Origin: Rhodothermales bacterium
GTDB lineage: Bacteria > Bacteroidota > Rhodothermia > Rhodothermales > UBA10348
Reading direction: 5' to 3'
Assembly: GCA_017643395.1 (NCBI GenBank)
Contig: JAEPNP010000005.1
Location: forward strand, 186,001 to 250,000
Length of the DNA: 64,000 bases
In this document: positions 25,225-42,291 of the stretch, piece by piece
Position numbering within the stretch: the first letter of the stretch is position 1
Layout of the letters: each line of letters begins with the position of its first letter
The notes under the pieces: generated by a model
What the model saw: the letters and a program-made list of their open reading frames with translations, nothing else
What the model was told of the DNA's origin: nothing
The model's database searches: none
Program-made: the position numbers and the translations under genes

Positions 25225-26292
25225 TCAGGGGACACGTTCCCCAATCGCCTCCCCCGCCGCATACCCCCGCGACGCCCGCCTCCCCACCACATCCCAATAC
25301 TCCAAACCCGAAATCCCATCCCCCGGACGCCGCGTAGTCAAATCCGCCGCCTCAATCACCGCCCCGGCCTCAATCGCCCGAGCCGCAACCAGACTCTTCC
25401 GCGCTACCGCGCGATTCGGCGCCTCACTCGCCTGGCACACCTTCTCCCCTGTGCCGAACGCGGTCTCAATGGCTCGCGCTCCCTCAACCAGAGCCGCCAG
25501 TTCATCCGGCTCCAGCGACGCCTTGTGATCCGGCCCCGGCAACTCCCGCGACAGCGTGAAGTGCTTCTCCAGCACCGTCGCCCCCAGCGCCACAGCCGCC
25601 AGACCGATCGATATCCCTTCGGAATGATCAGAAAAACCGACGGGAAGGCTGAAATGCCGGCCCAGGGTCTGCATGGCGCGCAGATTGATTTCTTCGGGCG
25701 ATGTGGGGTATTGCGTGGTGCAGTGCAGCAGAGTGACCCGGCCTTCCAGTCCGTCCAGCCGTTCAAAATCCACGGCACCGCGCGGCACGTCGGCAGATCG
25801 GTAGCCGAACGCCAGCACGCCCAGCGCCCTTTCCACCTCGGGCATATCCGCCATTCCCGTGGACAAAATGACTTCGCACCCCGCCTGGGCGGCCGCCAGC
25901 AAGAGGGGGCCATCGGTCATGTTGCCTGAGCCGATTTTGAGGGTGGAGGCACCCATGCGCTGCACGAGAAACTCCAGGCTGGGCATGTCGAACGGCGTCG
26001 ACAAGAAGTCGATGCCGCACTCCGCGCACGCGTCTCGCAGCACGAAATGCGCATCGTGCGGCAACTCCAGCGGTCGAAGCATATCCGCCTGCGAAACCGA
26101 ACTGCCGGTATTCTTCTTCTGGTACACCGCCATGGGCGCGCGCTCGGACACCAGCTCCCACACACGAAACGTTTGAAACTTGACGGCATTGGCCCCGCAC
26201 CGAGCCGCCACGCGCACCATTTCCAGCGCCCGGTCGGTCGACCCGTTGTGGTTGACGCCGGCCTCGGCGATGATGTAGGTGCTCGTGCTCAT
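25225..26292 (-). CDS. neuB: nonulosonic acid synthase, NeuB/LegI type
   Basis: The 355-residue product starts STYIIAEAGVNHNG, continues NAVKFQTFRVW, LKIGSGNMTDGPL, ILSTGMADMPEVE, LLHCTTQYPTSPEE, GFSDHSEGI and the active-site segment ELPGPDHKASLEPDEL. That last motif is the form of N-acetylneuraminate and legionaminate synthases and differs from PseI. A C-terminal SAF domain follows (ARKSLVAARAIEAG). It condenses an N-acyl mannosamine derivative with phosphoenolpyruvate. ATG 26292 was chosen over an in-frame start 48 bases upstream that would overlap the divergent gene. It is divergent from the NeuC-type gene with only about 29 bases between the starts. Confidence 0.9.
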   Translation of the reverse strand: MSTSTYIIAEAGVNHNGSTDRALEMVRVAARCGANAVKFQTFRVWELVSERAPMAVYQKKNTGSSVSQADMLRPLELPHDAHFVLRDACAECGIDFLSTPFDMPSLEFLVQRMGASTLKIGSGNMTDGPLLLAAAQAGCEVILSTGMADMPEVERALGVLAFGYRSADVPRGAVDFERLDGLEGRVTLLHCTTQYPTSPEEINLRAMQTLGRHFSLPVGFSDHSEGISIGLAAVALGATVLEKHFTLSRELPGPDHKASLEPDELAALVEGARAIETAFGTGEKVCQASEAPNRAVARKSLVAARAIEAGAVIEAADLTTRRPGDGISGLEYWDVVGRRASRGYAAGEAIGERVP

Positions 26293-26321
26293 GTCGCTTC
26301 CAGAATCCGCCCGAAAACTAA

Positions 26322-27521
26322 TTGACGGAGTCGCTTCCAACCCAGCGCCGCGTGGCCGTGCTGACCGTGGCCCGATCCGACTTCGGGATCTATCGACCGG
26401 TCCTGCGCGCCGTCCGCGAACACCCGGATCTGGAACTGCGCATTATCGCCACGGGCACACACCTGTCGGAGCGCCACGGCGCCACGCGCTCCGAAATCCT
26501 TGAGGCGGGATTCGAGATCGATGCGGAGATCCCCAGCACCGAAATCTCGGACGCCCCTGAAGACATCACCCGGGCGATGGGCACCATAACCCGGGGCATG
26601 GCCCAGGCCCTGGCCCGCCTCAAGCCAGACTGGCTGCTCGTGCTCGGCGACCGCTACGAGATGCACGCCGGCACCGTCGCCGCCCTCCCCTTCCGCATCC
26701 CGGTCGCCCATATTCACGGCGGCGAAGTCACCGAGGGCGCCTTCGACGATTCTCTCCGGCACGCCGTCACCAAGCTCAGCCACCTGCACTTTGCCACGAC
26801 CGAGGACTACGCCCGGCGGATCCGGCAATTGGGTGAGGAGGACTGGCGCGTGCACGCCGTCGGTTCTCCCAACCTGGACAACCTGACCCAGCTGGACCTG
26901 CTGTCGCGGGAGGAGCTGTGGGCGCACTACGCCTGGCCTGCGCACCCGACCAACGCCGGACGGGCGGATCGACCCTTTGTGATGGTGACGTTCCATCCGG
27001 TAACGCTCCAGTGGGACGAGTCGGAGCGACATCTGAAGGAACTGCTGGCTGCGGCGCGTGCGGTCGATGCGTTCTATGTGTTTTCCGGCGTCAATGCCGA
27101 CACGGGGGCGAATCCGCTGGCGGCTGCGGTGCATCGGTTTGTCAAGGCGTCGGTCGACTCGGCTGCGTTTGTCGAGAGCTTTGGCGTGACGCGCTATTTC
27201 AGCGCGCTCGCGTGCGCAGATGCCATGCTCGGCAACAGCTCGAGCGGGATTCTCGAGAGTCCGCTGTTTGAGCTGCCTGTGGTGAACGTCGGAGATCGCC
27301 AAAAAGGACGTATCCGCGGCAATAACGTGATCGATGTGCCACCCGAGCGCGGGCGAATCGAAGCAGCACTCCGAAGGGCACTCACGGCCGGCTTTCGCGC
27401 CGGCCTGCGCGGCATGCACAATCCGTACGGAACCGGCGGCGCGTCTGAGGCCATCGCGGAGGCCATCGCCCGTACACCGATTAACCAGCGACTCATCCAG
27501 AAGGCCTTCATCGACCGATGA
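26322..27521 (+). CDS. neuC: hydrolysing UDP-GlcNAc 2-epimerase, NeuC/LegG type
   Basis: The 399-residue GT-B-like protein has VAVLTVARSDFGIYRPVL, LVLGDRYEMHAGT, AHIHGGEVTEGAFDDSLRHAVTKLSHLHFATTE, TFHPVT and GNSSSGILESPLFELPVVNVGDRQKGR, all hallmarks of NeuC/NnaA. It produces the free mannosamine-type sugar used by NeuB. The start is a TTG at 26322; a GTG at 26352 is an alternative and would give a slightly longer intergenic space to the divergent neuB. The 3' end overlaps the following formyltransferase gene (ATGA), suggesting co-translation. Whether the substrate is UDP-GlcNAc (sialic acid) or a 6-deoxy diamino sugar (legionaminic acid, LegG) cannot be told. Confidence 0.9.
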   Translation: MTESLPTQRRVAVLTVARSDFGIYRPVLRAVREHPDLELRIIATGTHLSERHGATRSEILEAGFEIDAEIPSTEISDAPEDITRAMGTITRGMAQALARLKPDWLLVLGDRYEMHAGTVAALPFRIPVAHIHGGEVTEGAFDDSLRHAVTKLSHLHFATTEDYARRIRQLGEEDWRVHAVGSPNLDNLTQLDLLSREELWAHYAWPAHPTNAGRADRPFVMVTFHPVTLQWDESERHLKELLAAARAVDAFYVFSGVNADTGANPLAAAVHRFVKASVDSAAFVESFGVTRYFSALACADAMLGNSSSGILESPLFELPVVNVGDRQKGRIRGNNVIDVPPERGRIEAALRRALTAGFRAGLRGMHNPYGTGGASEAIAEAIARTPINQRLIQKAFIDR

Positions 27522-30223: not shown

Positions 30224-30269
30224 AATAGTCGTTTTTGACCTGCCGGTTTAGTGTCTGCCTGCCATGGCT
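30224..30269 (+). promoter_or_regulatory. pair of 23-bp direct-repeat elements upstream of the response regulator
   Basis: Two elements begin at 30224 (AATAGTCGTTTTTGACCTGCC) and 30247 (TTTAGTGTCTGCCTGCCAT), 23 bases apart. They share an initial TAGT and a final CTGCC and resemble the array at 37455-37562. The spacing of about two helical turns suggests a protein bound on one face of the DNA. The response regulator itself is the first candidate. Confidence 0.45.
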
Positions 30270-30383
30270 CGGGTACCGGAGGACCCTACACTCTCCGTGT
30301 CCCTTCGGAAGCGAATCCAGCGGTCTGCAGATCTCATGCAATCGCGGGATGCAACTCCGCGCGAATACCCCGAGGTTGGGGCC

Positions 30384-31049
30384 ATGATGGAAACCTCCCG
30401 GCAAATAGTCATCTGGATGGTCGAAGACGACGCGGACTACCGCGCGACCATGTCCTCCGTCCTGCAGCTGTCCCCGGAGACATCGCTTTCCCGCTCGTTC
30501 GGGTCGTGCGAGGAGGCGTTTGCCTTTGTGGCCTCGAAGGAATTCGCGGAGGCCGATGAGCCTGTACCGGATGTCATGCTCCTGGATGTCAACCTCCCCG
30601 GCGCTAGCGGCCTCGAGAGCATCACGCAACTGAAGAACGAATTGCCGGGCATGGCCATCGTCATGCTCACCATCCGTAACGAAACGGAGACCATCTTCTC
30701 GGCCTTCCGGTTTGGCGCGTCGGGCTACCTGCCCAAGGACTCGCCCATCGACGAAATCCTGGACGCGGTGCGCGAGGCGAGCCGGGGAGGAACACTAATG
30801 CCCGCCCTGGTGGCCGGCGAAGTGCTCTCCTTGCTAAGGGAGGCACCGGAAAAGGACTACGGCCTGTCAGACCGCGAAACCGATGTATTGCGGGAGATGA
30901 CGCTCGGGAAGAGCCAGCAGGCCATCGCCGATGCGCTCTTTGTGAGCCGGCACACCGTGAACACCCACATCCAGCATATCTACGAAAAGCTGCACGTGCA
31001 CTCAGGGATCGAAGCCGTGGCGAAGGCGCTGCGGGAGCGCATTGTGTAG
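30384..31049 (+). CDS. LuxR/NarL-family response regulator
   Basis: The 221-residue product has a receiver domain (residues 7-125) with the acidic pair in VEDDADYR, the phospho-acceptor Asp68 in MLLDVNLPGASG, the Thr in VMLTIRNE and the Lys in YLPKDSP. A C-terminal LuxR-type helix-turn-helix runs from about 155 (LSDRETDVLREMTLGKSQQAIADAL). The start is ATG 30384 (or 30387); the frame is open upstream to an ATG at 30264, but that adds 40 residues unlike any receiver. It is the first of a four-gene unit ending in a histidine kinase of the matching HisKA_3 type. The gap to the next gene is 19 bases. Confidence 0.9.
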   Translation: MMETSRQIVIWMVEDDADYRATMSSVLQLSPETSLSRSFGSCEEAFAFVASKEFAEADEPVPDVMLLDVNLPGASGLESITQLKNELPGMAIVMLTIRNETETIFSAFRFGASGYLPKDSPIDEILDAVREASRGGTLMPALVAGEVLSLLREAPEKDYGLSDRETDVLREMTLGKSQQAIADALFVSRHTVNTHIQHIYEKLHVHSGIEAVAKALRERIV

Positions 31050-31068
31050 CCCCCAGACCCCTAAATCC

Positions 31069-31905
31069 ATGGCACAAGACAAATGGAACATCAGCTACCG
31101 GCAATTTCGCACGGTAGCCTGTGTGTGCAACGCGAACAATGGTGGACTAGCAGACCGCATCCTGGACCATGAGGATGGCAGCGATATCGCCAAGGCCGCG
31201 GTCGCCGATCCGAATAGCCTCATCGAAGTGCTGCGGAAAGTCGCTACAGCCAAAGGCAAGGATCTCCAATGGGCGGCCGACAGCCCGGATCTGAAGTTCT
31301 ACCACGGCGGAACGGGCGACATTGGGGCGGGCAGGGATGGCGACTTCGTGCTGACCGAGGACGCGATGTACCTCCCTTGGCCGTTGCCTCTTTCGAACTT
31401 GCCGGACGAGGCGGTCGATACAGATCAGCCAGAGAGCATCCCCTGGGAAGAACTCCAGCGCAAGCGGGCCGCCCTACTCGAGAAAGGCCTCGACTTCACT
31501 GACGCACCGCTGCCCGATCTGCAAACCACTCCGCACATCATTTTCGTGCGGGACCTCGACGGAATCATCGACGCCACCGCAAGAATTGCACGAGCTCATG
31601 CGAATGGAACGGCACCAGGTAGCATCGTAGGAGACGACAAGAAGTTTTTCGAGGATCCAACCTTCCTGATCCATGGAAACCTTGAGAAAGGGTACATAAG
31701 GTCTTCAGCCGTCTACCTATCGCCAACTGATTCTGGGAATTGGAAGGTCTCGCTCCCAGTCGAATGGAAGAGTGGCATCAGTGACGGAAAGATCGATTGG
31801 CCGGAAAAACCCGATCCGGATTTTCCGCTGGTGCCTCTCGACGACCTGGACGAGAAGGACTTCACCGCCACCTGCCACGCCTTCTGGAACGAGCCGCCCG
31901 AATGA
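31069..31905 (+). CDS. unrecognised 278-residue protein, partner of the YcaO enzyme
   Basis: The product is soluble, acidic in its middle and C-terminal parts, and has no signal peptide or membrane segment. Features seen include a Cys pair in VACVCNANNGG near residue 17, a KFYHGGTGDIGAGRDGDFVLTED segment near 75, and a Pro/Asp-rich tail ending CHAFWNEPPE. Weak similarity of AKAAVADPNSLIEVL to RiPP leader peptides was noticed but is not convincing. It overlaps the YcaO gene by 4 bases (ATGA), so it is likely made in step with it and could be its substrate, partner or delivery protein. The function is unknown. Confidence 0.6.
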   Translation: MAQDKWNISYRQFRTVACVCNANNGGLADRILDHEDGSDIAKAAVADPNSLIEVLRKVATAKGKDLQWAADSPDLKFYHGGTGDIGAGRDGDFVLTEDAMYLPWPLPLSNLPDEAVDTDQPESIPWEELQRKRAALLEKGLDFTDAPLPDLQTTPHIIFVRDLDGIIDATARIARAHANGTAPGSIVGDDKKFFEDPTFLIHGNLEKGYIRSSAVYLSPTDSGNWKVSLPVEWKSGISDGKIDWPEKPDPDFPLVPLDDLDEKDFTATCHAFWNEPPE

Positions 31906-33068
31906 GCCTGCAGTCGGCCCTCCGCACGTTCGGCGGAGGGCCGCGGATTTCCGCATCCGAACGCATCGGCTCCCGAATCCACATTCTGGACCTTGAATGC
32001 GTTCACGGCGGAAAGCGCCACCGCGCCCAGGGCAAGGGACTCACACATGCCGCGGCCCTCGCAAGCGCCCAGGGCGAGCTCCTGGAACGCCTCTGTGCCA
32101 GGGCGCCGGAGCGGCCGCTCGAATGCGCCCCGATCGAGGCCGCCGGTCCGGGCGCAATTGATCCCCGATCGACGCTTCTCTTCAGCGAGCGCCAGTACCG
32201 TGATCGCCGCCCCCCGCGAGAAGCGCTCGCCATCGGGGACGTGCTTGTTCCGGATCCGATCACCGCGCAGACCAAGTTCGCCTGGACGGGCGCATCGCAC
32301 TACCAAATCGGGCAAATTCGCCGCGTGGCGGCGGCAGCGACCTACTTCGGCTTCCTGGCCGAGGGCGCCGCGCACTGCATCGCCGACTCGAATGGGATGG
32401 CGGTCGCCGAGACCCGATCGGACGCGGTGCGGCACGGGCTACTCGAACTCGTCGAGCGCGACGCCGTCGCCATATGGTGGTACAATCGCCTGCTGAGGCC
32501 GCCGGTACCCGCGGCCTGGACGGATTCCGCTGACTGCCGGGCGCTGCTCGAGGACCTGTCGGATTTCGGGCCTGAATTGCTGGACCTCACGCACGATCTG
32601 GCCATCCCTGTCGTCGCCGCCACCGGATTCACGCCACACGGTTTTCTGGCGATGGGCTTCGGCGCGCACCCGGACCCCGCCTCCGCCGCACGCTCGGCCT
32701 TGCTGGAATTCGCCCAGTGCGTCGTCAACCGCGGAAAATCGCCACCTGGCCAATCGCCGGTGAGAGCTTCTGCATGGAGCCGGCGGGACGATCAGCCCTT
32801 CCTGCATGCGCAGCCCGAGGCGGCCCGGGCTGACCGTGGACCCGTTTCGGACCCCGCCGAGCATTTGGCACGACTCGGCCTGGACGTTATCGTGGTGGAC
32901 TTCGAAAGCCCCCTCGAAATATCGTGCGTGAAGGTCGTCGTCCCCGGTCTACGCCCCTGGTTCAGGAGACTCGCGCCGGGACGGCTGTACGATGTGCCCG
33001 TCTCGCTCGGCTGGCTGTCCCGCCGGCTGCCCGAAGAAGCGCTCAATCCGGCCGCATTCGACTTGTAG
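31902..33068 (+). CDS. YcaO-family ATP-dependent enzyme (azoline cyclodehydratase-like)
   Basis: The 388-residue product has the YcaO ATP-binding pattern: GKGLTHAAALASAQGELLERL, the central CIADSNGMAVAETRSDAVRHGLLELVERDAV, and ARSALLEFAQC. Its C-terminus, VPGLRPWFRRLAPGRLYDVPVSLGWL then NPAAFDL, matches cyclodehydratases that make thiazole or oxazole rings in peptides. YcaO enzymes activate a backbone amide by phosphorylation. No E1-like partner, dehydrogenase or obvious precursor peptide is present, which is unusual for an azole synthase. The genes on either side are an unknown protein and a two-component system. Start ATG 31902 overlaps the upstream stop. Confidence 0.85.
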   Translation: MSLQSALRTFGGGPRISASERIGSRIHILDLECVHGGKRHRAQGKGLTHAAALASAQGELLERLCARAPERPLECAPIEAAGPGAIDPRSTLLFSERQYRDRRPPREALAIGDVLVPDPITAQTKFAWTGASHYQIGQIRRVAAAATYFGFLAEGAAHCIADSNGMAVAETRSDAVRHGLLELVERDAVAIWWYNRLLRPPVPAAWTDSADCRALLEDLSDFGPELLDLTHDLAIPVVAATGFTPHGFLAMGFGAHPDPASAARSALLEFAQCVVNRGKSPPGQSPVRASAWSRRDDQPFLHAQPEAARADRGPVSDPAEHLARLGLDVIVVDFESPLEISCVKVVVPGLRPWFRRLAPGRLYDVPVSLGWLSRRLPEEALNPAAFDL

Positions 33069-33073
33069 CTCTC

Positions 33074-36000
33074 TTGGCCCTCTTGGAGCTGGTCGCCTCG
33101 GTGGAGGTCGCGGCGCAGGCGCCATCGCCCGAACCTGACCCGCCGCGATTTCGATCGCTCACCCTGGATGACGGCTTGCCGAACTACACGGTCATGAGCC
33201 TGCTGCAGGACGGCCCGGGCTACATGTGGATCGGCACGCAGATCGGTCTTTCACGGTTTGACGGGCGTCATCATCGCATTTACCGGGCGTCTTCGGCGCA
33301 GGCGGATTCGCTGGGAGACGGGTTTATCACATCGTTGGCACGAACGACCGACGATTCCGCGGCCGTCTGGGTCGGTACGAAGCTGGCCGGTGTGCATCGA
33401 TTTCGCCCTGCTGACGACGCGTTTGAGCGCATTCCGGGGCCCGATGAGGCAGCCGCCCGTCACGTGTTGAGTCTTCTGGATGTCGACGGCATTTTGCTGG
33501 TAGGCACAGACGGGGCGGGCCTCCTGACCCTGTTCCCGGGGGCCGATTCCCTGCGCGGCCCGCCCTCCCCGCTGGGTCGGAGCGTTTCCGGTTTTTCGGT
33601 CGTTCCGCAGGCGCCAAATCTGGTCCTCGTACTGTCTGAGCTCGGCCTCGCAGCACTCCGCCTGCCCGACATGGTCCCGGTGCCGGTACAAGTCTCGGGG
33701 GCAGATCTGTCGCGGCCCGTTTCCATGGCCTGGCTGTCTCCGGAGCGCGCCGTTATCGCCACAGACTCCGGCCTGAAAGAAGCGGAAATCCGCATCTCAG
33801 GCACCGAATTGACCCTGCATATTCAACCGGTCGCGGGCATTTCGAGCCAGGATGTGCGCAGTGTGCTGGTTCGAGACTCTGAAGTGTGGGTGGGCATGGG
33901 CGACGCCGGGGTGGATGTACTGGACGCGGAGCTGACGGTCACGCATCGCCTGTCGGCCACCGGTCCGGAGAGCATCGCCGATGATGCGATTCAGACGCTT
34001 GCGCTCGACCGCGAGGGCTTGGTCTGGATTGGAACCTGGGCCAACGGATTGTCCATCGAACGACCCGCCCGTCGATTCGCCCAAGTCCACCACGCCGCCG
34101 ATAACCCGGAGGGACCACCTCCGAGCAACGTATTCGGCATTCTGGAGGACAGGAATCGGCCGGGCACGATGTGGGTCGGATTCATGTATGGCGGTCTGGC
34201 GCACTGGGACCCGAAGCGCGGTGTGTTTGAGAAACGGTATGCAGACCCGGACCACCCGCTCAATTCGGTGTCTGCCCTCGGCTATGACCACGACGGCGGG
34301 CTATGGGCCCTCGGGCGCAGGAACTCTGTCTTCAGGCTGCGTGCTGACGGCAGCATCCTGGACCGCGTGGCGCTCGATTTGCCCCCCGACAGCGCCGACG
34401 GCTGGGTCACGTTCCTGCACCCGCGACGAGCTGGCGGAGACCTCCTCATCGGCACGCGCGGGCATGGGCTCGTAGTGTTTGATCCCGTGCGCGGCGTTGT
34501 TCGGCATCGCTACGGCCGGCGGGGAGCGCTCAGTGCCCATCGCTTGGATTCGGACGACATCTGGCAGCTTGTCGAGGAGGAGGACGGCACGTTGTGGGTG
34601 GCCACGGGGCTGGGCCTGGCGCGGATCGGGCCGGATGGCGCGGTCTCTGCATTCCATGCACACGACCCCGATGATCCGGAGTCCTTGAGTGGGCCCCTGG
34701 TCAGTTCCGTGGTGAGGGACGCGCACGGCATGCTCTGGTTGGGCACGCCGGACGCCGGTCTGAATCGATTTGACCCGACCTCCGGCAGGGTGGTGCGGCT
34801 GTCGCAAGAGCACGGATTACCCAACTCGGACGTCGGCGGAATCGTGCCTGACGAGTCCGGTCGACTCTGGCTGTCCTCCAGTCGTGGACTCGCCGTCCTG
34901 GACCCCTCGACGCTGGAAATCGCACGATTTGGCCCGCTGGATGGCGTGTTGGAGCAGACGTTTCAGTATCGCGCGCGCACGCGCCTCGCCTCCGGGCACA
35001 TCGCTCTCGGCGGGCCAAACGGAACACTGACCGTGTTCGATCCAGCCGGCATTGTGGTCGATTCGACCCCGGCCATGGCGCGTGTGACCGACATTCTGGT
35101 TGGAGGCCGCAGGGTGCCGCCAGGCGCGTGGAGTACGATCTCCCTCGGCCACCAGGAGGGCGATGTGCTTTTTCGCTTTTCGGACCTGTCCTTCGCCACG
35201 CCCGAGAAGGTGCGGTACCGGGTCAGACTGTCGGGCGGCGAATCCGGCTGGACACCGGCGGACGATGCGGAAGTCGGATTTGCCCGGCTGGGTCCCGCTT
35301 CCTACCGGTTTGAGGTAGTGGCCACCAATCGGGATGGCCTGTGGGGCGCTCCCGGGCCTGCCGTCGAACTGACCGTGCGCCCCCCGTTCTGGCAAACATG
35401 GTGGTTCAGTGGGTTGATGCTGGCGCTGATCGCAGGAATGACGGCGGCCGCGTTCCAGTACCGCATCCGCCAGATCAGGCGCCTGGAGGCGGAGCGCAAC
35501 CGCATCGCCAACGACCTGCATGACGATCTCGGCAGCAAGCTGGGTTCACTTGCTTTGCGGCTGGAGCTGCTGGCGCGGCGGGTCCCCGAGCAGCAAGAAT
35601 CACTGACCAGCCTGGCGAGTTTTTCTAGGGGCGCGATTCAGAACCTGCGCGATACCATCTGGCTGGTTGCCACCGGACACGGCGCGGTGCGGGACCTGCG
35701 CGAGCGCCTGGAGCATGCCGCAGGGGAGATCCTGGTCGATATCCCATTCGCGTTTGAGGTGTCGGGCGGTCCGATGACCCAGGAGATGGATCCGTTGCGG
35801 CGGCGCGCCCTGTTGCTGGCGGTTCGGGAGGCGCTTCACAACGTCGCCAAACACTCAGGGGCGGATCGCGTGGATGTGGGCATGGAGGTGTGGCCCCGGC
35901 GCGTTCAGGTTACGGTCCGGGACAATGGGCGCGGGATTGCGGCGGCGGCGGAGCGGGCTGGCCGAGGGATTGCGCCTGCGGTCAGGCGGACCGGGCGGGG

Positions 36001-36103
36001 GATGCACACCATGGTTGACCGCGTGGAGGCGGCCGGCGGTGAGACGGAGGTGTCTACTGAGGCGGGCGTGGGCACGGTGGTGCGGATTTCGATGCCCATT
36101 TAG
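33074..36103 (+). CDS. two-component-propeller sensor histidine kinase
   Basis: About 1010 residues: a hydrophobic signal-like segment, a long periplasmic region of Reg_prop propeller repeats (MWIGTQIGLSRFDG, MWVGFMYGGLAHW, LWLGTPDAGLNRFD), a Y_Y_Y domain, and one membrane helix (SGLMLALIAGMTAAAF). These are followed by a HisKA_3 domain with the phospho-His in NDLHDDLGSKL and an HATPase domain (ALHNVAKHSGA, VRDNGRGI, GRGMHTM). The start is uncertain. No ATG or GTG lies between a GTG at 32924, inside the YcaO gene, and TTG 33074, and the best signal peptide would begin at an ATT at 33056. It is the probable cognate kinase of the LuxR regulator. Confidence 0.88.
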   Translation: MALLELVASVEVAAQAPSPEPDPPRFRSLTLDDGLPNYTVMSLLQDGPGYMWIGTQIGLSRFDGRHHRIYRASSAQADSLGDGFITSLARTTDDSAAVWVGTKLAGVHRFRPADDAFERIPGPDEAAARHVLSLLDVDGILLVGTDGAGLLTLFPGADSLRGPPSPLGRSVSGFSVVPQAPNLVLVLSELGLAALRLPDMVPVPVQVSGADLSRPVSMAWLSPERAVIATDSGLKEAEIRISGTELTLHIQPVAGISSQDVRSVLVRDSEVWVGMGDAGVDVLDAELTVTHRLSATGPESIADDAIQTLALDREGLVWIGTWANGLSIERPARRFAQVHHAADNPEGPPPSNVFGILEDRNRPGTMWVGFMYGGLAHWDPKRGVFEKRYADPDHPLNSVSALGYDHDGGLWALGRRNSVFRLRADGSILDRVALDLPPDSADGWVTFLHPRRAGGDLLIGTRGHGLVVFDPVRGVVRHRYGRRGALSAHRLDSDDIWQLVEEEDGTLWVATGLGLARIGPDGAVSAFHAHDPDDPESLSGPLVSSVVRDAHGMLWLGTPDAGLNRFDPTSGRVVRLSQEHGLPNSDVGGIVPDESGRLWLSSSRGLAVLDPSTLEIARFGPLDGVLEQTFQYRARTRLASGHIALGGPNGTLTVFDPAGIVVDSTPAMARVTDILVGGRRVPPGAWSTISLGHQEGDVLFRFSDLSFATPEKVRYRVRLSGGESGWTPADDAEVGFARLGPASYRFEVVATNRDGLWGAPGPAVELTVRPPFWQTWWFSGLMLALIAGMTAAAFQYRIRQIRRLEAERNRIANDLHDDLGSKLGSLALRLELLARRVPEQQESLTSLASFSRGAIQNLRDTIWLVATGHGAVRDLRERLEHAAGEILVDIPFAFEVSGGPMTQEMDPLRRRALLLAVREALHNVAKHSGADRVDVGMEVWPRRVQVTVRDNGRGIAAAAERAGRGIAPAVRRTGRGMHTMVDRVEAAGGETEVSTEAGVGTVVRISMPI

Positions 36104-36110
36104 AGGGGCC

Positions 36111-37385
36111 TCACATCATCATCGGCGACTCCGTCCCTCCCCTCCCAAGCAACACGTCCAGCTTTTCCAACTGCCCCCTCGCAGAGTCCATCATCCAGTC
36201 CTGGTGTGGAAGGGCCTCGAGTTTCTGGCGGATGAGACCCTCGCTCGGGTCCTGCAGTCCGTGTAGACTCTCCAGCAGCGAAGCACCGCGCCAAAAGAGC
36301 TCGGGACTTCCGTCCGCTGGATCGGCGTCCAGAACATCCTTTGTAAGGTCCCGCACCCTCGACCAGGCCTCCACAGCCCGAAACTGATCGACTTCGGCTT
36401 CTCTCGGGTCAGGCGAGAATTCCTTTGCCCTCAGGCGGAGGAGATAGGCGTAGTTGACACCGTTGTAGTGGTCGTCGCGAAGCACGAAGCCGCGTCGGTA
36501 GGAGGTGATAGCGTGCTCAAGATCCTGCATACGCTCGTCATGGGACCGGTCCGGGTGTTCTGCGAGACGCTTGTGAATGGCGCCCCAGATCCCCAGGGTC
36601 TCCGGATCGGTGCTCCCTGCAGGGTCCAGCCGGTCGCTGAGTACCGTCCTGGCCTCCAACAGATCGGCGACAGGAGCCGGCTGCCCGTCGCGTTCGTTCC
36701 GCTTGTAGAGCGCCAGCGCCAACTGTTGCGAAATCCACGGGTCGTTGTCCGGCTGTTCACGCAGCAGCTCGACCACGCTGGTCCAGTCCCCCTGGGCCTT
36801 GAGCTCATCGGTCCGCGCCATGATTCCGGCCAGTGATTCCCGGGCGGGAATTGTGTCATGAGGCCCACCGGGAGGAGGGCCGCCTTGCCACGACGGCGGA
36901 ATGAGCTCCTCTCCAAGCAGCGTGTAAATCAAACTGTCCGGCTCGTTCGCCCGGCGTGCTTCGCGGCAAACATCCGCCAACAGGGGCCGGAATCGGTCCA
37001 CCTCGTCGGCGTCCAGTGCCTTCCCGTGATGGGAGTAGGTGAAGAACCGCTCCTGGCTCAGGTTGAAGGGGATCTTGGTGTCGTCAGCCGCAATAACGAT
37101 CGTCGCCTTCGGCCGGAATGCCATGCGAACACCCAGTTCGTACATGGCATTCGCGTTAAGCGTGGTCAGGTCTGCGATAACGAGGTCGGCATGGAAGAGC
37201 CAGTAGTACATCTGTCGCTCGATTCGACCGGGGCGAATGACCTCATCGGACCGCACCACGGAAAAGCCCGCCGCCTCGGCCGCCGGCTTGATGAGCTGGC
37301 GGTACGACTTGTCCAGATCATACTCCTTTCCGGTATCCGGATCGGACTTGGTCCGGTAGCCCATAACCACGAAGCAGGTCGCCAT
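36111..37385 (-). CDS. TPR-containing protein with N-terminal nucleosidase-like (DUF4071/TRAFs-binding type) domain
   Basis: The 424-residue product opens with CFVVMGYRTKSDPDTGKEYDLDKSY. A Rossmann-like region carries LVIADLTTLNANAMYELGVRMAF, in which the Asn-x-x-x-x-Glu-Leu-Gly resembles nucleoside 2-deoxyribosyltransferase and TIR-like folds. From about residue 180 it is helical with TPR-like repeats (WTSVVELLREQPDNDPWISQQLALALYKRN). This is the architecture of proteins annotated as DUF4071 or TRAFs-binding, several of which occur in bacterial conflict systems. It faces away from the patatin operon across a 185-base region with repeat elements, and may be the sensor. Its own enzymatic activity is unproven. 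Confidence 0.7.
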   Translation of the reverse strand: MATCFVVMGYRTKSDPDTGKEYDLDKSYRQLIKPAAEAAGFSVVRSDEVIRPGRIERQMYYWLFHADLVIADLTTLNANAMYELGVRMAFRPKATIVIAADDTKIPFNLSQERFFTYSHHGKALDADEVDRFRPLLADVCREARRANEPDSLIYTLLGEELIPPSWQGGPPPGGPHDTIPARESLAGIMARTDELKAQGDWTSVVELLREQPDNDPWISQQLALALYKRNERDGQPAPVADLLEARTVLSDRLDPAGSTDPETLGIWGAIHKRLAEHPDRSHDERMQDLEHAITSYRRGFVLRDDHYNGVNYAYLLRLRAKEFSPDPREAEVDQFRAVEAWSRVRDLTKDVLDADPADGSPELFWRGASLLESLHGLQDPSEGLIRQKLEALPHQDWMMDSARGQLEKLDVLLGRGGTESPMMM

Positions 37386-37454
37386 CGTTCTCCCCTCTTC
37401 CTATCCGGAAAACCGTACGAACCGTGATCTCGATGCGCAAGCCGGCGCGCGCCG

Positions 37455-37562
37455 AATAGTGTCTCCCTGCCTGTTCGATAGTGTAAAACTGCCATGCACA
37501 TTAGTGTCTGCACGCCATTGCGCCATGACGGCACGGGCAAATAGTCTCTCCAGGACTACAAG
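37455..37562 (+). promoter_or_regulatory. array of four direct-repeat elements in the divergent patatin/TPR promoter
   Basis: Elements start at 37455 (AATAGTGTCTCCCTGCC), 37477 (GATAGTGTAAAACTGCC), 37500 (ATTAGTGTCTGCACGCC) and 37540 (AATAGTCTCTCCAGG); the first three are 22 and 23 bases apart. The consensus is close to WTAGTGTCTnCCTGCC. The last copy lies about 10-30 bases before the patatin start. The same element precedes the response regulator at 30224-30269. These are likely operators for a common regulator. Confidence 0.5.
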
Positions 37563-37570
37563 AGACGGCG

Positions 37571-38701
37571 ATGGCGCTTCTGGACAGACTGGACTCCGAG
37601 GCCCCCAAACGAATTCTGTCCCTGGACGGCGGAGGCATACGGGGCATTCTGACTCTGGGCTTCCTGGAGCGTGTGGAACAGATTCTGAAGGAGCGAGCCG
37701 ACCGGAATGACTTTGTACTGGCCGACTACTTCGACTTGATCGGCGGCACCTCGACCGGGTCCATTCTTGCCGCCGGACTGTCCACCGGGATGCACGTAAA
37801 GGACCTCATCGCCCTGTATGAGGACCTCGGCAGCAAGGTCTTCCGGGGCTCTGCACTCAGAGGCGGACTCCTGTTCGAGAAGTTTCCTTCCGGCCCCTTG
37901 CGCCGGGAGCTCACCAGGCAGTTCGGCACCATGCAACTGAGCGATCCCGAGATTCGCACGGGCTTGCTCGTGATGACCAAACGGTTGGACTCCGGCAGCG
38001 CCTGGCCGATCCACAATCATCCGCGGGGACGCTTCTACAGTGGAGCTCCCGTAGCGGGCACGGTACCGTTTCCCAACAAGGACTTTTCCCTGGCTCAAGT
38101 GGTTCGGGCCTCAACTGCGGCTCCTTCTTTCTTCGAGCCGGAAGACATCATTGTCGGCGATCACCAGGGCCGGGCCTTTTCGGGCAGCTTCGTCGATGGC
38201 GGCGTGAGCCCACACAACAATCCTGCGCTTCAGCTGCTCATGTTGGCAACCATGAGCGGACATGGATTCGGATGGACGATGGGACCTGAGGACCTGTTTA
38301 TGCTCTCCCTCGGCACGGGCTCGAAGGTGCCTGGTGCTTCCGCCAAAGGCGTTTCGGCGTCGGTGGCCATCAAAGCGCTCAAATCCCTCATGGATGACTG
38401 CGCGGAACTGGTGGAAACCATCATGCAGTGGGTGTCCGAGTCGCCCACCGCCCGCCCCATTGACCTGGCCGTCGGGGACCTGGCCGGCGAATTGCTCGGA
38501 GGGCGTGAGCTGCTGACGTACGTGCGCTACAACGTCTTCTTTGACGTCGAGTGGATGCAGACACAGCTGGGCGTGATGAACGTGACCGCCACCCAGCTCT
38601 CGGAGCTGAGCAAGATGGACGAGCCCGACCACGTACACCAGTTGCTCCATCTCGGCCGGATTGCCGCGCACAAGCTGGTAGATCCAGCCCACCTGCCCTG
38701 A
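37571..38701 (+). CDS. patatin-like phospholipase
   Basis: The 376-residue product is a complete patatin: oxyanion-hole DGGGIRG at about residues 19-25, nucleophile Ser61 in GTSTG, and catalytic Asp209 in VDGG. It has no signal peptide or membrane helix, so it acts in the cytoplasm, presumably on inner-membrane lipids. The closest role model is the CapV-type patatin effector of CBASS, where membrane damage kills infected cells; no cyclase gene is seen here, so control would have to differ. It is the first gene of a four-gene operon; the TIR gene follows after 5 bases. A metabolic lipase is possible but would not explain the neighbours. Confidence 0.85.
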   Translation: MALLDRLDSEAPKRILSLDGGGIRGILTLGFLERVEQILKERADRNDFVLADYFDLIGGTSTGSILAAGLSTGMHVKDLIALYEDLGSKVFRGSALRGGLLFEKFPSGPLRRELTRQFGTMQLSDPEIRTGLLVMTKRLDSGSAWPIHNHPRGRFYSGAPVAGTVPFPNKDFSLAQVVRASTAAPSFFEPEDIIVGDHQGRAFSGSFVDGGVSPHNNPALQLLMLATMSGHGFGWTMGPEDLFMLSLGTGSKVPGASAKGVSASVAIKALKSLMDDCAELVETIMQWVSESPTARPIDLAVGDLAGELLGGRELLTYVRYNVFFDVEWMQTQLGVMNVTATQLSELSKMDEPDHVHQLLHLGRIAAHKLVDPAHLP

Positions 38702-38706
38702 ATCCG

Positions 38707-39363
38707 ATGTACCGCGAGATCTTCGTCAGCTACAGCAGGAAGAACAAGGGCCTCATGAACGATGTGGTCCGGCATCTGTCCGGAGGCACGCACGGCATGG
38801 TCTGGTCCGACGAGGATATCGCCGTGGGGCAGGAATGGGACGTTGAAATCGGTGAGGCACTGGCCGACTGCCGCATGGCGGTCCTGCTCGTATCCGGGTA
38901 CTGGCTGTCTTCCGAATACATCCTGAAGAGGGAGGTGCCCTTGATCCGGGAGTTGCGGGGAGATGGCGGACTGGTTTACCCCGTGCGCGGCGGGTCTGCC
39001 GACTGGGCGCGACTTCCCTGGCTTGCGGCCCTGCAATGGTTTCCGCGCGAAGGCCCGGTGCTGTTGGAGCTCAAAGGTCATGCTCGGGATCGCGTGCTCG
39101 CGGAGATGGCGGCCGATGTGAGGGTGCAGCTGGCCAACACGCCCGCCAGGGCGACCCGTCGCTGGAGAGAAAGCGCGATCCGGCCAGTGCCGATGTGGTC
39201 CTGCCTCCTGCTGGTACTTCTTGTACTGCTCAAGAACGTGCTGGCCGGCGCAGATCCGACTACCAGCGAGGTCGTGCTGTGTCTTTCGCTGGCGACTGCC
39301 GGCTCGCTGTACTACGTCTTTGATCGATTCACCACCATTTTCAATGCCGCGCGACTCCGATAA
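38707..39363 (+). CDS. TIR-domain protein with C-terminal membrane segments
   Basis: The 218-residue product begins with REIFVSYSRKNKGLMND and continues MVWSDEDIAVGQEW and VLLVSGYWLSSEYILKREV, the typical TIR fold. Glu76 in KREV, aligned with the WxxxE/SxWCxxE region, is the probable NAD-cleaving residue. Residues 165-210 form two membrane helices with a basic segment before them, so the TIR domain is tethered to the inner membrane. TIR domains of bacterial defence systems degrade NAD or make signalling nucleotides. ATG 38707 is chosen; earlier in-frame starts lie inside the patatin gene. It overlaps the next small gene by about 20 bases. Confidence 0.85.
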   Translation: MYREIFVSYSRKNKGLMNDVVRHLSGGTHGMVWSDEDIAVGQEWDVEIGEALADCRMAVLLVSGYWLSSEYILKREVPLIRELRGDGGLVYPVRGGSADWARLPWLAALQWFPREGPVLLELKGHARDRVLAEMAADVRVQLANTPARATRRWRESAIRPVPMWSCLLLVLLVLLKNVLAGADPTTSEVVLCLSLATAGSLYYVFDRFTTIFNAARLR

Positions 39364-39643
39364 TTTTCTGACCCGCATGCCGCGGTCGGCTCGTCAGAGC
39401 TTCTTTGTTTTCGTGGCCTGGGTGGGCCTGATGGGAGTGACTCTGATCGTCGTGGTTCTGTGGGCCTCGTCCACGCTTCAGACGGCCGCGAGCGTAAACG
39501 ACGAGCATACCACGGAACGCATCAACGTCCTGACGGCAAAGGTGGACTCGATGAGCACCCGTCTGACGGCGCTTGAGAGAGCCAGGCCGCGCGGCGGCAC
39601 CCCCCGAAACCCAACCGTGCGCCGTCCGAATGGCTCACGCTAA
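39344..39643 (+). CDS. small membrane protein with coiled-coil
   Basis: The 99-residue product (ATG 39344; a Met at 39377 is the alternative) has one membrane helix (residues 19-43, FFVFVAWVGLMGVTLIVVVLW). A helical heptad-like stretch follows (TTERINVLTAKVDSMSTRLTALERA), then a basic Pro-rich tail. No family is recognised. It overlaps the TIR gene at its start and the next gene by 14 bases at its end, so all are translated together. A scaffold or membrane anchor joining TIR and downstream protein is plausible. Confidence 0.6.
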   Translation: MPRDSDNFLTRMPRSARQSFFVFVAWVGLMGVTLIVVVLWASSTLQTAASVNDEHTTERINVLTAKVDSMSTRLTALERARPRGGTPRNPTVRRPNGSR

Positions 39644-40280
39644 ATATGATCTGCGCGTCTTCGTCAACTGCCCGTTCGATGACGCTTACACCGAGATGTT
39701 CGAGGCGCTGATCTTCACGGTTACCGCCTGCGGACTGGTCGTGGTCAGTTCGAAGGCCGTGCTCAACGGTGCCGAAGACCGCATGTCCAAACTGAAGGAC
39801 CTGATCGGCTCGTGTCGCTACGGCATTCACGACATTTCCCGCACAGACCTGGACCTCGACACGGGCCTTCCGCGGTTCAACATGCCGCTGGAGTTGGGCA
39901 TGTTTCTCGGTGCCCGGTCCTTTGGGGGTAAGCGCCAGAAGCAGAAGTCCTGCGCCATCCTGGACGTTTCCGAGTATCGATACCGCGACTTCATCTCGGA
40001 CCTGGCCGGGTACGAGGTGATGGCGCACGGCAACAGGGTCGACCAGTTGATCCGACAGGTCCGGAACTGGATTCGTGCACTTCCGGATCCAGACCGTACC
40101 AGGGTTCGGGGCTGGGAAGTGATCTCGAAGCTGTACACCCAGTTTCGTGAGGACCTGCCGGTCATCTGTAGAAATCTCGGTCTCGAACCGGACACCCTGG
40201 GGTTTCACGACTTCGTCGCCATCCTGGTCGACTGGCTTCGGGACCCGCCCGACCCTCCTCCTGCCGAAAACGATCGGTGA
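39630..40280 (+). CDS. TIR/nucleoside-deoxyribosyltransferase-like cytosolic protein
   Basis: The 216-residue product begins YDLRVFVNCPFDDAYTEMFEALIFTV, continues KLKDLIGSCRYGIHDISRTD and FNMPLELGMFLGAR, then CAILDVSEYRYRDFISDLAGYEV. The N-x-P-x-E-L-G segment parallels N-A-N-A-M-Y-E-L-G in the divergent TPR protein, suggesting the same Rossmann fold with a glutamate in the base-cleaving position. Proteins of this type are found with HEPN, TIR or STAND genes, but I cannot name the exact family. No membrane segment. The C-terminal tail is proline-rich. A cytosolic nucleotidase or NADase effector, or a nucleotide sensor, is inferred. Confidence 0.65.
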   Translation: MAHAKYDLRVFVNCPFDDAYTEMFEALIFTVTACGLVVVSSKAVLNGAEDRMSKLKDLIGSCRYGIHDISRTDLDLDTGLPRFNMPLELGMFLGARSFGGKRQKQKSCAILDVSEYRYRDFISDLAGYEVMAHGNRVDQLIRQVRNWIRALPDPDRTRVRGWEVISKLYTQFREDLPVICRNLGLEPDTLGFHDFVAILVDWLRDPPDPPPAENDR

Positions 40281-40346
40281 ATCACACAAAGAACACACCC
40301 AACGGTCTAACTTTTCAGGACTTACACGTATTGAGAAGTAATAGAC

Positions 40347-40375
40347 TTGAGCCGATACCAGTTACATGTATCTTG
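40347..40375 (+). promoter_or_regulatory. candidate Bacteroidota-type promoter
   Basis: TTG at 40347-40349 and TATCTTG at 40369-40375 are separated by 19 bases, near the -33 TTG and -7 TAnnTTTG pattern. The small gene begins about 68 bases downstream. Seen by eye only. Confidence 0.25.
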
Positions 40376-40442
40376 CCTCCTGCCTCTGTTCAAGTGGGAG
40401 CAATCCACGTATCGAGGCTCTGCAGTCCCCTAGACAGGCACT

Positions 40443-40613
40443 ATGGCTAAGTATCGAACCATCAAAGACCCCGCAGCCCGCGGCACGCTGTCACGAGAGC
40501 GTGTTCTGGCCGCAATTGATGCCCTCCGCAGTGAGCGCCAGAAAGCCAAGCGGCAATTCGAGAAGGCGCGCAAGGAGGCAGAGCGGGAGGTAGAACTGAC
40601 CTCAGCGAGGTAG
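40443..40613 (+). CDS. small basic helical protein, 56 residues
   Basis: A frame of 56 codons from ATG 40443 to TAG 40613 follows AGG-containing leader sequence and the candidate promoter above. The product is highly charged and helical: AIDALRSERQKAKRQFEKARKEAERE. No motif is recognised. It resembles small antitoxin- or DNA-binding-like accessory proteins only in composition, not by any conserved signature. Position after the patatin/TIR operon and before hipBA (opposite strand) is notable. Confidence 0.45.
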   Translation: MAKYRTIKDPAARGTLSRERVLAAIDALRSERQKAKRQFEKARKEAEREVELTSAR

Positions 40614-40674
40614 AAGGTCCGGATCCAGCATGGGAGCATGGTGTCGACACCATCCGCTACCCGGACACGGCCTC

Positions 40675-40790
40675 GTCACCCGAACACCTCTTCCCGCCGC
40701 TCCTGGAGTGCGGTCGAAATCGCCGCGGTCAGGTCACCCGAACACCTCTTCCCGCCGCTCCTTCAGCGCCGCCGAAATCGCCGCCGTCGC
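40675..40790. repeat. 58-base tandem duplication at the hipA 3' end
   Basis: Two copies begin at 40675 and 40733; the first 29 bases (GTCACCCGAACACCTCTTCC...) are identical and the rest is similar. The inner copy encodes the hipA C-terminus and stop; the outer copy lies just beyond it. The period of 58 is not a multiple of three, so the copy is not in frame. Confidence 0.7.
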
Positions 40791-42035
40791 ATCGCCCGGA
40801 ACTGCGCACTCTGCCGCCGCTGACTCCCACCGCGAAAGCGCATCCGCTACCCGCTCTACGATCTGCCTGGGTCGTTTTACCGCAAAGGTCTGTGCCACTT
40901 CCAGCAGGTCCGCGAGCACGATACCGCTCGTTTTGCCGTTCACGCGCATCTGGTGCCACCGCGTCCACCCCTGCCCGCGCGCAAACGTCAAATCGTACGC
41001 TGGGCTTAGTCGCCAGACGCCGTTCTGCCCCAGGTGGAACGACAGATTCTTTACGTGATCGTCCTGATTGACCGCGAGTACGTTGAACGCCATGCGACGA
41101 AATGCCTCCTGCAGCGCGCCGCCGGACATGCCGAGCGCCAGGGCTGATCGCAGGTACTCTTCATAGCTGCTCGCAGCAGGATCGTTGTAGTCCACGTGCA
41201 GCAATCCGCCCAGGGTGTGCTGGTGCAGCGAAGTGCCGTCCTCCCCAAGGTCGAACCGCGGAATCAGCAGATGTGCGTGGCCATCATCGCTCTCCAGGAT
41301 GCGCACGTCCACGACACCTAGTCCGGCATTCCGGGCGATGCGCGCATAGGCCGCCTCCACCCGGTTGAACGGCTGCGGTTTTCCCATCTGCCCGGGGCTT
41401 GCGTTGGGATCGACCCCATCGAACTTCAGGATGGCCGGCTGATCCCCGGGCCGCGGATCAGCGAAGGCCGACCGGATCACGCCGTTGTTGTGCAGCACTA
41501 CCGCTTTGGGGCGCATCCCTCCGGCGGAACTGCCGATTCGGTAGATCTCGGGAACGGCGATATCCGCTTTACCCTCGACAATGCGTCTTGCGTCGCGGAC
41601 CAACGCTGCGATTTCCAGAGCCTGCTCGTCTTGCGGCCGCGTCTCGAGATCCGCCGCGGGCCGGAATTCCAGCGCGCCGATGGCCCGGGGTCCCACGTAG
41701 AGCAGGTGCTGCACGGGACTCAGCGCCTTTTGCATTTCGCCCCGCGACGTGAAGTACGTGCGGATGACTGTTTTGCCGAAGCTGTCGGGCAGGGCGTCTG
41801 CCAGCACACCCGGAAGGCCGTTGAACCCCGGCCGGCGCGCCAGTTCGGGAAACGCGAATACGCCTGGTCTGGCCGGCACGTTGAGAGGCGAAATCTCGAT
41901 ACCCCGGGCGATGTGGTCCTGGCTGTACTCAAAGAAGATGCGCCCGTCCTCCATTTCGGCGACGGCTCCGACAAACTGGCCCCAGAGCCAAACCTCCGCG
42001 ACTGCGCTCGGGTCAGCCACGGCCGACCAGCTCAA
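40734..42035 (-). CDS. hipA: HipA-family serine/threonine kinase toxin
   Basis: The 433-residue product has a HipA N-terminal domain (EVWLWGQFVGAVAEMEDGRIFFEYS) and the kinase core: SAGGMRPKAVV (the phosphate-binding loop region), HLLIPRFDL, NVLAVNQDDHVKNLSF with the catalytic Asp, and LSPAYDLTF with the metal-binding Asp. HipA phosphorylates glutamyl-tRNA synthetase in E. coli and causes growth arrest; this one may have the same or another target. It overlaps the antitoxin gene by 23 bases. All active-site motifs are intact, so the toxin is likely functional. Confidence 0.9.
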   Translation of the reverse strand: MSWSAVADPSAVAEVWLWGQFVGAVAEMEDGRIFFEYSQDHIARGIEISPLNVPARPGVFAFPELARRPGFNGLPGVLADALPDSFGKTVIRTYFTSRGEMQKALSPVQHLLYVGPRAIGALEFRPAADLETRPQDEQALEIAALVRDARRIVEGKADIAVPEIYRIGSSAGGMRPKAVVLHNNGVIRSAFADPRPGDQPAILKFDGVDPNASPGQMGKPQPFNRVEAAYARIARNAGLGVVDVRILESDDGHAHLLIPRFDLGEDGTSLHQHTLGGLLHVDYNDPAASSYEEYLRSALALGMSGGALQEAFRRMAFNVLAVNQDDHVKNLSFHLGQNGVWRLSPAYDLTFARGQGWTRWHQMRVNGKTSGIVLADLLEVAQTFAVKRPRQIVERVADALSRWESAAAECAVPGDATAAISAALKERREEVFG

Positions 42036-42291
42036 GGGGGCTGACTTCCGGCTCGGGGATGAAGTCGGCGACCGCGCCGATGCGCCCGTACACCCGCAGC
42101 AATCGCAGAAGCGTCAGCAGTGTAGGATTCCGGCCCTTTTCGGCGCCCACCACCGTGGATTTGTTGAGCGATGCGCGGTCGGCGGCCTCCTCCAGCGTGA
42201 GGCCCTGGTCCTTGCGCAACCCGCGGAGCCGCTTCCCGAGGAGAGTGAGCAGCTCGGCGTCTGATGTGAAGTATGTGGTTTTATCCGTCAT
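42013..42291 (-). CDS. hipB: HipB-like helix-turn-helix antitoxin
   Basis: The 92-residue product has an XRE-type helix-turn-helix: KRLRGLRKDQGLTLEEAADRASLNKSTVVGAEKGRNPTLLTLLRLLR. It would bind HipA and the promoter. It precedes and overlaps hipA by 23 bases. Four palindrome-related operator-like elements lie at 42275-42444, one over its first codons. The start at ATG 42291 gives TDKTTYF as the N-terminus. Confidence 0.85.
   Translation of the reverse strand: MTDKTTYFTSDAELLTLLGKRLRGLRKDQGLTLEEAADRASLNKSTVVGAEKGRNPTLLTLLRLLRVYGRIGAVADFIPEPEVSPLELVGRG

Follow-up and report, generated by a model that had tools for sequence, protein, structure and literature searches.

The closest described relatives of the locus reported here are the TPR-S systems (Pfam family PF20308, Tetratricopeptide Repeats-Sensor), for which Burroughs and Aravind are said to have predicted in 2020 that TPR-S senses signals derived from nicotinamide adenine dinucleotide (NAD+). 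We analysed a stretch of 64,000 nucleotides from a Rhodothermales bacterium (GCA_017643395.1, contig JAEPNP010000005.1, positions 186,001 to 250,000; hereafter the window), in which a TPR-S gene lies divergently to four co-directional genes that encode a patatin-like phospholipase, a TIR protein, a transmembrane (TM)/coiled-coil protein and a DNPH1/TIR-like protein. TPR-S and patatin genes were found to be a real recurrent pair in several bacterial phyla, and an even balance of confidence attaches to our reading of the locus as an abortive-infection system of the TPR-S type, in which nucleotide signalling would act through a patatin phospholipase as effector. Like TPR-S systems, the locus has a DRHyd-like domain, a TPR-S match over the cut-off and a TIR gene alongside; it apparently differs from them in having a patatin effector, a divergent TPR-S gene and extra TM/coil and DNPH1/TIR-like genes. 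Since systems of the TPR-S kind were already predicted, as the Pfam name also indicates, the locus is a variant of a predicted kind of system and not a new kind. The features of the locus are as follows.

36111..37385, minus strand: ASK1-like DRHyd-TPR-S protein P0005, 424 aa, predicted to sense or act on nucleotides (Pfam TPR-S, ASK1 profile, AlphaFold2 fold)
37386..37570: divergent intergenic region, 185 bp, with direct repeats as candidate operators (repeat search)
37571..38701, plus strand: patatin-like phospholipase P0001, 376 aa, with Ser61 and Asp209, predicted to be the effector (Pfam Patatin, CapV match, PADLOC)
38707..39363, plus strand: TIR protein P0002, 218 aa, Glu76, C-terminal membrane helices (Pfam TIR_2, PADLOC ThsB)
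39344..39643, plus strand: TM/coiled-coil protein P0003, 99 aa, single TM helix (hydropathy, heptads, GC content at codon position 3)
39630..40280, plus strand: DNPH1/TIR-like predicted enzyme P0004, 216 aa (AlphaFold2 fold, family alignment)

All five open reading frames (ORFs) are intact, and the successive spacings from P0001 to P0004 are +5, -20 and -14 bases. The GC content at codon position 3 was 0.75-0.78 in all five genes, similar to that of the neighbouring genes, and all five therefore look coding; P0003 stays in this range also outside its overlaps. P0003 overlaps the TIR gene and P0004 overlaps P0003, as in one translationally coupled unit, and the four genes are presumably transcribed as an operon. 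An earlier note on this DNA had described four co-directional genes and a divergent one, and its coordinates, spacings and motifs were all reproduced, together with its calls of a complete patatin with Ser61 and Asp209, a membrane TIR with Glu76, a one-helix coiled-coil protein and, on the divergent side, a TPR protein whose N-terminal domain is related to that of the fourth gene product.

Comparison with described defence systems

In the literature on bacterial conflict systems, DRHyd, TIR and SLOG domains are treated as relatives of one another that act on nucleotides or NAD+ (PMC9503650, PMC7159879), and patatin is not mentioned in the passages searched from these two papers. Swarozyc systems use DUF4062 proteins, which belong to TIR-like NADase families employed in antiphage defence (PMC13174449); their domain is different from those of the window, and the main text of that paper names no patatin, TPR or DUF4071.

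The patatin fold and catalytic dyad of P0001 are shared with the cyclic oligonucleotide-based antiphage signalling systems (CBASS) that carry the phospholipase CapV, its nearest solved structure (profile A1, E 1.3e-37). CBASS was nevertheless rejected, as the match to the CBASS_lipase model (102.7 bits) fell short of its cut-off of 200 and the SMODS-type CD-NTase family PF18144, the only CD-NTase model tried genome-wide, had no match in the genome at E 0.01. Possible points of contact with Thoeris are a match of P0002 to the PADLOC ThsB model, where Pfam gives TIR_2 only, and a locus elsewhere (L105) in which a TPR-S gene stands beside ThsB-type TIR genes. Thoeris was rejected too, with no SIR2-SLOG, macro(-TM) or caspase-like ThsA among the window proteins scanned; TPR-S and patatin stand in place of ThsA. 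The absence of a cyclase, proposed in the earlier note, thus agrees with the genome-wide search, and the seven neighbouring proteins scanned with Pfam included no CBASS or Thoeris core.

TPR-S and patatin genes recur as a pair

P0001 matched Pfam Patatin with an E-value of 2e-27 and the PADLOC phospholipase effector model with 1.3e-41, and both S61 (in GxSxG) and D209 (in DGG/A) were invariant in the seven aligned sequences. We collected the loci of its best 80 out of at least 574 relatives, which had identities of 36-50% at the best segment; the set therefore leans to close relatives. Gene calling in the fetched loci was purely mechanical, so that a few of the neighbouring 'genes' are spurious antisense ORFs. 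Using a refined DRHyd profile, we found 22 DRHyd genes within 1 kb of the 80 patatins, two at 1-3 kb and one farther than 3 kb, while the sequence covered was 156 kb in the innermost zone and about 646 kb in the outermost. Nineteen of the 22 were co-directional with the patatin. By record titles, these 22 loci came from Pseudomonadota (15, including 7 from Bradyrhizobium), Bacteroidota (6) and Acidobacteriota (1).

All 152 genes adjacent to the patatins were scanned with Pfam, proteins of more than 900 aa being reduced to their first 700 residues. TPR-S (17 genes) and TIR_2 (16) were the top two families, followed by nSTAND1 (9) and DUF4231 (7). These tallies are safer than those of our TIR profile, which was loose enough to match a pentapeptide-like protein in one locus (L182). 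In the PADLOC scan of the adjacent genes (25 of 30 families shown), there were single-member matches to Pycsar cyclase models and matches to SAVED-TIR models (one and three members), the latter of which we took as TIR parts. Runs in the order TIR, TIR, DRHyd/TPR-S and patatin were found in four loci (L105, L127, L130 and L131), and a TPR-S-type gene lay beside the patatin in two (L042 and L044) of the five plasmid patatin regions viewed.

In the other direction, TPR-S was detected at E 1e-8 in 26 of the 394 genomes of the phylum sample, and the 34 matches that lay in other genomes were all covered by 28 fetched stretches. Of these 28 loci, seven (L237, L239, L240 and L243-L246), spanning two families and three genera, carried a co-directional patatin beside the TPR-S gene, and eight had a TIR gene within the fetched stretch. 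TPR-S was over the Pfam cut-off in five scanned proteins from loci with patatin neighbours or similar. Because the association holds from both sides (22 of 80 patatin loci and 7 of 28 TPR-S loci), TPR-S and patatin are a recurrent pair, beside each member of which TIR genes also recur. The earlier note would have been refuted by homologues that never occur together; homologues do occur together, and the recurrent pair is that of TPR-S protein and patatin. Its suggestion of five genes forming one unnamed set is not supported; we rejected a conserved five-gene system, with P0004 relatives found without patatin neighbours and P0003 without relatives in patatin loci.

The two partners also have a domain in common. 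A SLOG-like domain of about 190 residues, noted in L042, L044, L047, L065, L240 and L244, occurs at the C-terminus of TPR-S proteins, by itself in L042 and L047, where a gene of its own encodes it, and as the N-terminus of the patatin itself in the Rhodococcus plasmid L044. The simplest natural form of the pair, of the type of L244 or L245, is DRHyd-TPR-S(-SLOG) plus patatin. BLAST linked the copies with E-values down to 1e-57, and one of the four tested had a weak YspA-type SLOG match (E 0.001, below the cut-off). A domain that both partners have in common in this way speaks for joint action of TPR-S protein and patatin.

On plasmids, 65 records matched the TPR-S protein, and annotated TIR genes lay beside TPR-S in five of the six plasmid regions viewed, the sixth record being unannotated there. 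Very similar TPR-S genes were present on many enterobacterial plasmids, including those of E. coli (H54 and H64), and in the Citrobacter plasmid L052 a pair of TIR genes and one DUF4231 gene came after the TPR-S gene. A QueC-type gene (together with Ogg-HhH in L105) was found beside the TIR and TPR-S genes of L105 and L050, which we take to be reminiscent of the accessory genes of type IV CBASS; no cyclase was noted there.

The divergent protein resembles the N-terminal half of ASK1

ASK1 (MAP3K5) is a human cell-death kinase and a regulator of apoptosis in animals. Residues 201-316 of P0005 matched Pfam TPR-S with an E-value of 2.4e-20 (73.4 bits against a cut-off of 27.6), and the protein also matched MAP3K_TRAF_bd (1.2e-9). 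A profile of 13 TPR-S protein sequences matched human ASK1 (8qgy) over positions 61-422 with an E-value of 2.1e-13 and the ASK1 central region (5ulm) with 1.9e-11, with weaker matches to DNPH1 (E 0.003 upward) and the Cap12 TIR (E 0.0046). In the AlphaFold2 model of P0005 (mean predicted local distance difference test score, pLDDT, 84; predicted template modelling score 0.61), residues 179-414 were closest to ASK1 5ulm (Z 15.3, 3.0 Å, 208 residues), the next TPR match having a Z of 11.6, and residues 1-142 were closest to DNPH1 8qhr (Z 13.0, 2.5 Å, 119 residues), in line with the related N-terminal domain that the earlier note had proposed. Judged by these profiles and the predicted fold, P0005 is a DNPH1-like (DRHyd) domain joined to TPR-S and a homologue of human ASK1 in the N-terminal half of the latter. 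The match covers both the DRHyd remnant and the TPR region of ASK1, whose kinase P0005 lacks. The earlier note had called P0005 a TPR 'sensor candidate'; the TPR part stood, and the label underrated the protein, missing TPR-S, a class that Pfam already names a sensor.

Family alignment of P0005 gave D72, N77, N79 and E83 as conserved residues, and E83, N77 and N79 were invariant across 21 aligned bacterial proteins. In the profile alignment, the bacterial proteins and DNPH1 have YELG where ASK1 has FYHLG, so that the glutamate at the catalytic position (E83) is kept in P0005 and replaced by histidine in ASK1.

The same comparison bears on an explanation that needs no diffusible messenger, in which P0005 would be a protein scaffold, the role that the TPR region of ASK1 has in animals, and would bind the patatin and the TIR protein directly, with an infection-linked protein as the switch and a merely structural DRHyd domain. 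The best match of the C-terminal half of P0005 to the central regulatory region of ASK1 is consistent with such a role, as are the arrangement of TPR-S protein and patatin as mostly separate adjacent genes and the absence of the catalytic-position glutamate in ASK1. We nevertheless consider a scaffold rather unlikely, because the invariance of E83, N77 and N79 in the bacterial proteins argues for a working nucleotide pocket and the association with SLOG-like and TIR domains suggests nucleotide signalling.

As a side observation, 31 phage records matched the N-terminal part of P0005 only, the matches covering about 28-36% of the protein in the ten listed (H73-H82), mainly from Staphylococcus and Streptococcus phages.

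TIR and coiled-coil genes

P0002 matched Pfam TIR_2 (7.4e-11) and the PADLOC ThsB model (4.3e-11), with no match to Pfam ThsB_TIR and none in a PDB sequence search. By motif, E76 appears to occupy the position of the catalytic glutamate of TIR NADases. Of the two membrane helices described in the earlier note, the one from residue 161 is strong (mean hydropathy 2.15) and the one from 187 weak (1.43). The small protein P0003 has a single strong TM helix (mean hydropathy 2.75) and a heptad run of six positions (I60, L63, V67, M70, L74 and L77), and its only Pfam match was to PspB, below the threshold. One of the patatin-bearing TPR-S loci (L237) has the order DRHyd-TPR-S-SLOG, TIR-TM-coil and patatin, and the TIR-2TM and TM-coil genes of the window look like a split version of its TIR-TM-coil protein.

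The fourth gene as a probable second module

The AlphaFold2 model of P0004 (mean pLDDT 88) was closest to DNPH1 8rps (Z 14.2, 2.6 Å, 124 residues), tied with the SPARTA TIR 8ifl (Z 13.9). The earlier label of a protein like TIR or nucleoside 2-deoxyribosyltransferase therefore holds. DNPH1/Rcl and the nucleoside 2-deoxyribosyltransferases share their fold with both P0004 and the N-terminal domain of P0005, whereas sequence identity is only about 10% and 20%, respectively. No Pfam family was above the cut-off for P0004 (the best was CAP12 TIR, E 0.065), and a PDB sequence search with its profile, at E up to 1, gave no match. In 30 sequences of the family, N13, H67, D68, R82, N84 and E88 were invariant. 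Relatives were detected in 7 of the 114 genomes of the order, in 33 of the 394 of the phylum sample and in 17 plasmid records; at least four of them (L138-L141) carry a C-terminal domain that we read as putatively formylglycine-enzyme-like.

In 17 of 39 loci with a P0004 relative (L172-L184, L021-L023, L127, L149, L150 and L163 among the DUF2188-P0004 loci), a DUF2188-like gene lay directly upstream on the same strand, nearly touching, and 17 of the 18 DUF2188-like ORFs in such loci adjoined the P0004 relative. The DUF2188-like profile was seeded from these upstream genes, and Pfam PF09954 was confirmed in six of ten tested. No patatin or DRHyd gene was found within 3 kb of 42 P0004-family ORFs, some of the stretches being shorter than 3 kb. 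In L127, the P0004 relative is about 6 kb from the TIR-TIR-TPR-S-patatin run. As P0004 relatives have no patatin within 3 kb and a usual small partner of their own, P0004 is probably a second, separate module, and P0004/DUF2188 is apparently an undescribed two-gene module.

These observations also speak for two independent modules in the window, one consisting of TPR-S, patatin and TIR and the other of P0003 and P0004 as a toxin-antitoxin-like or defence pair, a possibility that would be compatible with abortive infection by the first. It draws on the DUF2188-like gene upstream of P0004 relatives and on their distance from patatin and DRHyd genes, and is opposed by the overlaps of P0004 with P0003 and of P0003 with the TIR gene, which suit one translationally coupled unit. 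Moreover, chance alone often places an ORF of 40-140 aa upstream of a gene, as it did for 68 of 162 control genes, against 31 of 37 P0004 relatives. We hold this arrangement to be slightly short of evenly probable.

Proposed mechanism

We infer the catalysis, the messenger, the order of events and the antiviral function of an abortive-infection system as follows. An infection or damage cue would turn on nucleotide-glycosidic enzymes, namely the membrane-tethered TIR protein and perhaps also P0005 through its DRHyd domain. The NAD+- or nucleotide-derived product would be read by the DRHyd-TPR-S protein, which, once signalled, would license the patatin to cut membrane phospholipid, and the cell would be killed or stalled. 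P0003 may cluster the TIR protein at the membrane, and P0004 would act as a separate DNPH1/TIR-like enzyme module on the same transcript.

Several observations weigh against this scheme. The head-to-head gene order of the window occurs in none of the 22 DRHyd-patatin loci, 7 of which are from Bradyrhizobium, and five of the seven patatin-bearing TPR-S loci come from one family. TIR and TPR-S were jointly near the patatin in 10 loci, where independence would give 9.7, so that the patatin may have one or the other as partner and not both together, and 34 of the 80 patatin loci had no DRHyd/TPR-S, TIR or SLATT within 3 kb. For P0003, no relative could be detected in any of the 80 patatin loci, and P0002 had only weak relatives, none of them close. 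The rest of the window is mainly occupied by glycan biosynthesis and has no recognised defence island.

More broadly, and with somewhat more doubt than confidence, we suggest a widespread unnamed defence family in which a bacterial ASK1-like protein, its nucleotide-cleaving active site still in place, would sense or produce a messenger derived from NAD+ and thereby activate a patatin phospholipase, with TIR, SLOG-like and SLATT parts as interchangeable inputs or membrane anchors. The window would add a membrane-tethered TIR split from its coiled coil and an independently mobile DNPH1-like module, and the family would represent a bacterial ASK1 signalosome before the kinase. If true, this would connect an animal apoptosis regulator with a suicide pathway of bacteria whose executioner is defined, and one could test whether the inactive-looking DRHyd domain of ASK1 descends from an enzyme or from a receptor for nucleotides. 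Phage-challenge work would have two conserved modules that can be named, the TPR-S/patatin pair and the P0004/DUF2188 pair.

Our literature search, for which most subscription papers were out of reach, returned no paper on patatin with TPR-S and no description of the retained glutamate or the P0004/DUF2188 module. Three features thus seem new: the pairing of TPR-S with a patatin and the SLOG-like domain that the two share, the glutamate retained where ASK1 has histidine, and the P0004/DUF2188 module.

Promoter region, distribution and surroundings

The divergent promoter region contains direct repeats of ATAGTGT-N5-CTGCC at 37456, 37478 and 37501 and a weaker copy at 37541 (16 nt each, spanning 37456-37556 with spacings of 22, 23 and 40), which are possibly operators. 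Across the genome, TAGTGTNNNNNTGCC matched exactly at 11 sites and its reversed control at 3, and a sigma-70 scan of 36000-40800 gave no promoter-like site. One additional exact copy of the repeat lies at 30249, just upstream of a response regulator ORF (30264-31049), and a hybrid-propeller kinase gene (32924-36103) also precedes the locus.

The patatin, the TPR-S protein and P0004 were absent, at the thresholds used, from both same-genus genomes searched. Among the 114 genomes of the order, the patatin was found in two and the TPR-S protein in four, and homologues of genes of the locus were present on conjugative plasmids. This patchy, horizontally moving pattern fits defence without proving it. 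It also stands against an account in which the locus would serve not immunity but a stress or envelope-lipid pathway under the neighbouring two-component genes, to which the regulator and kinase genes upstream and the repeat copy before the regulator ORF would lend themselves. With the patatin being in addition of the effector type, by both PADLOC and the CapV match, we regard that account as very improbable.

Downstream, a HipA-like kinase gene and a helix-turn-helix gene (40734-42291) are convergent with the operon. One same-genus genome (G092) has a relative of the HipA-like gene with 73% DNA identity and without the operon; an empty site there was rejected as not clean, the two-component genes lying on the other side of the HipA relative. 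Farther upstream, the response regulator, a 287-aa ORF and a YcaO gene (E 6e-60) lie in a row (30264-33068) that is possibly a peptide-modification cluster, and two NeuB-family genes (19079-20149 and 25225-26340) lie within the long glycan-biosynthesis stretch.

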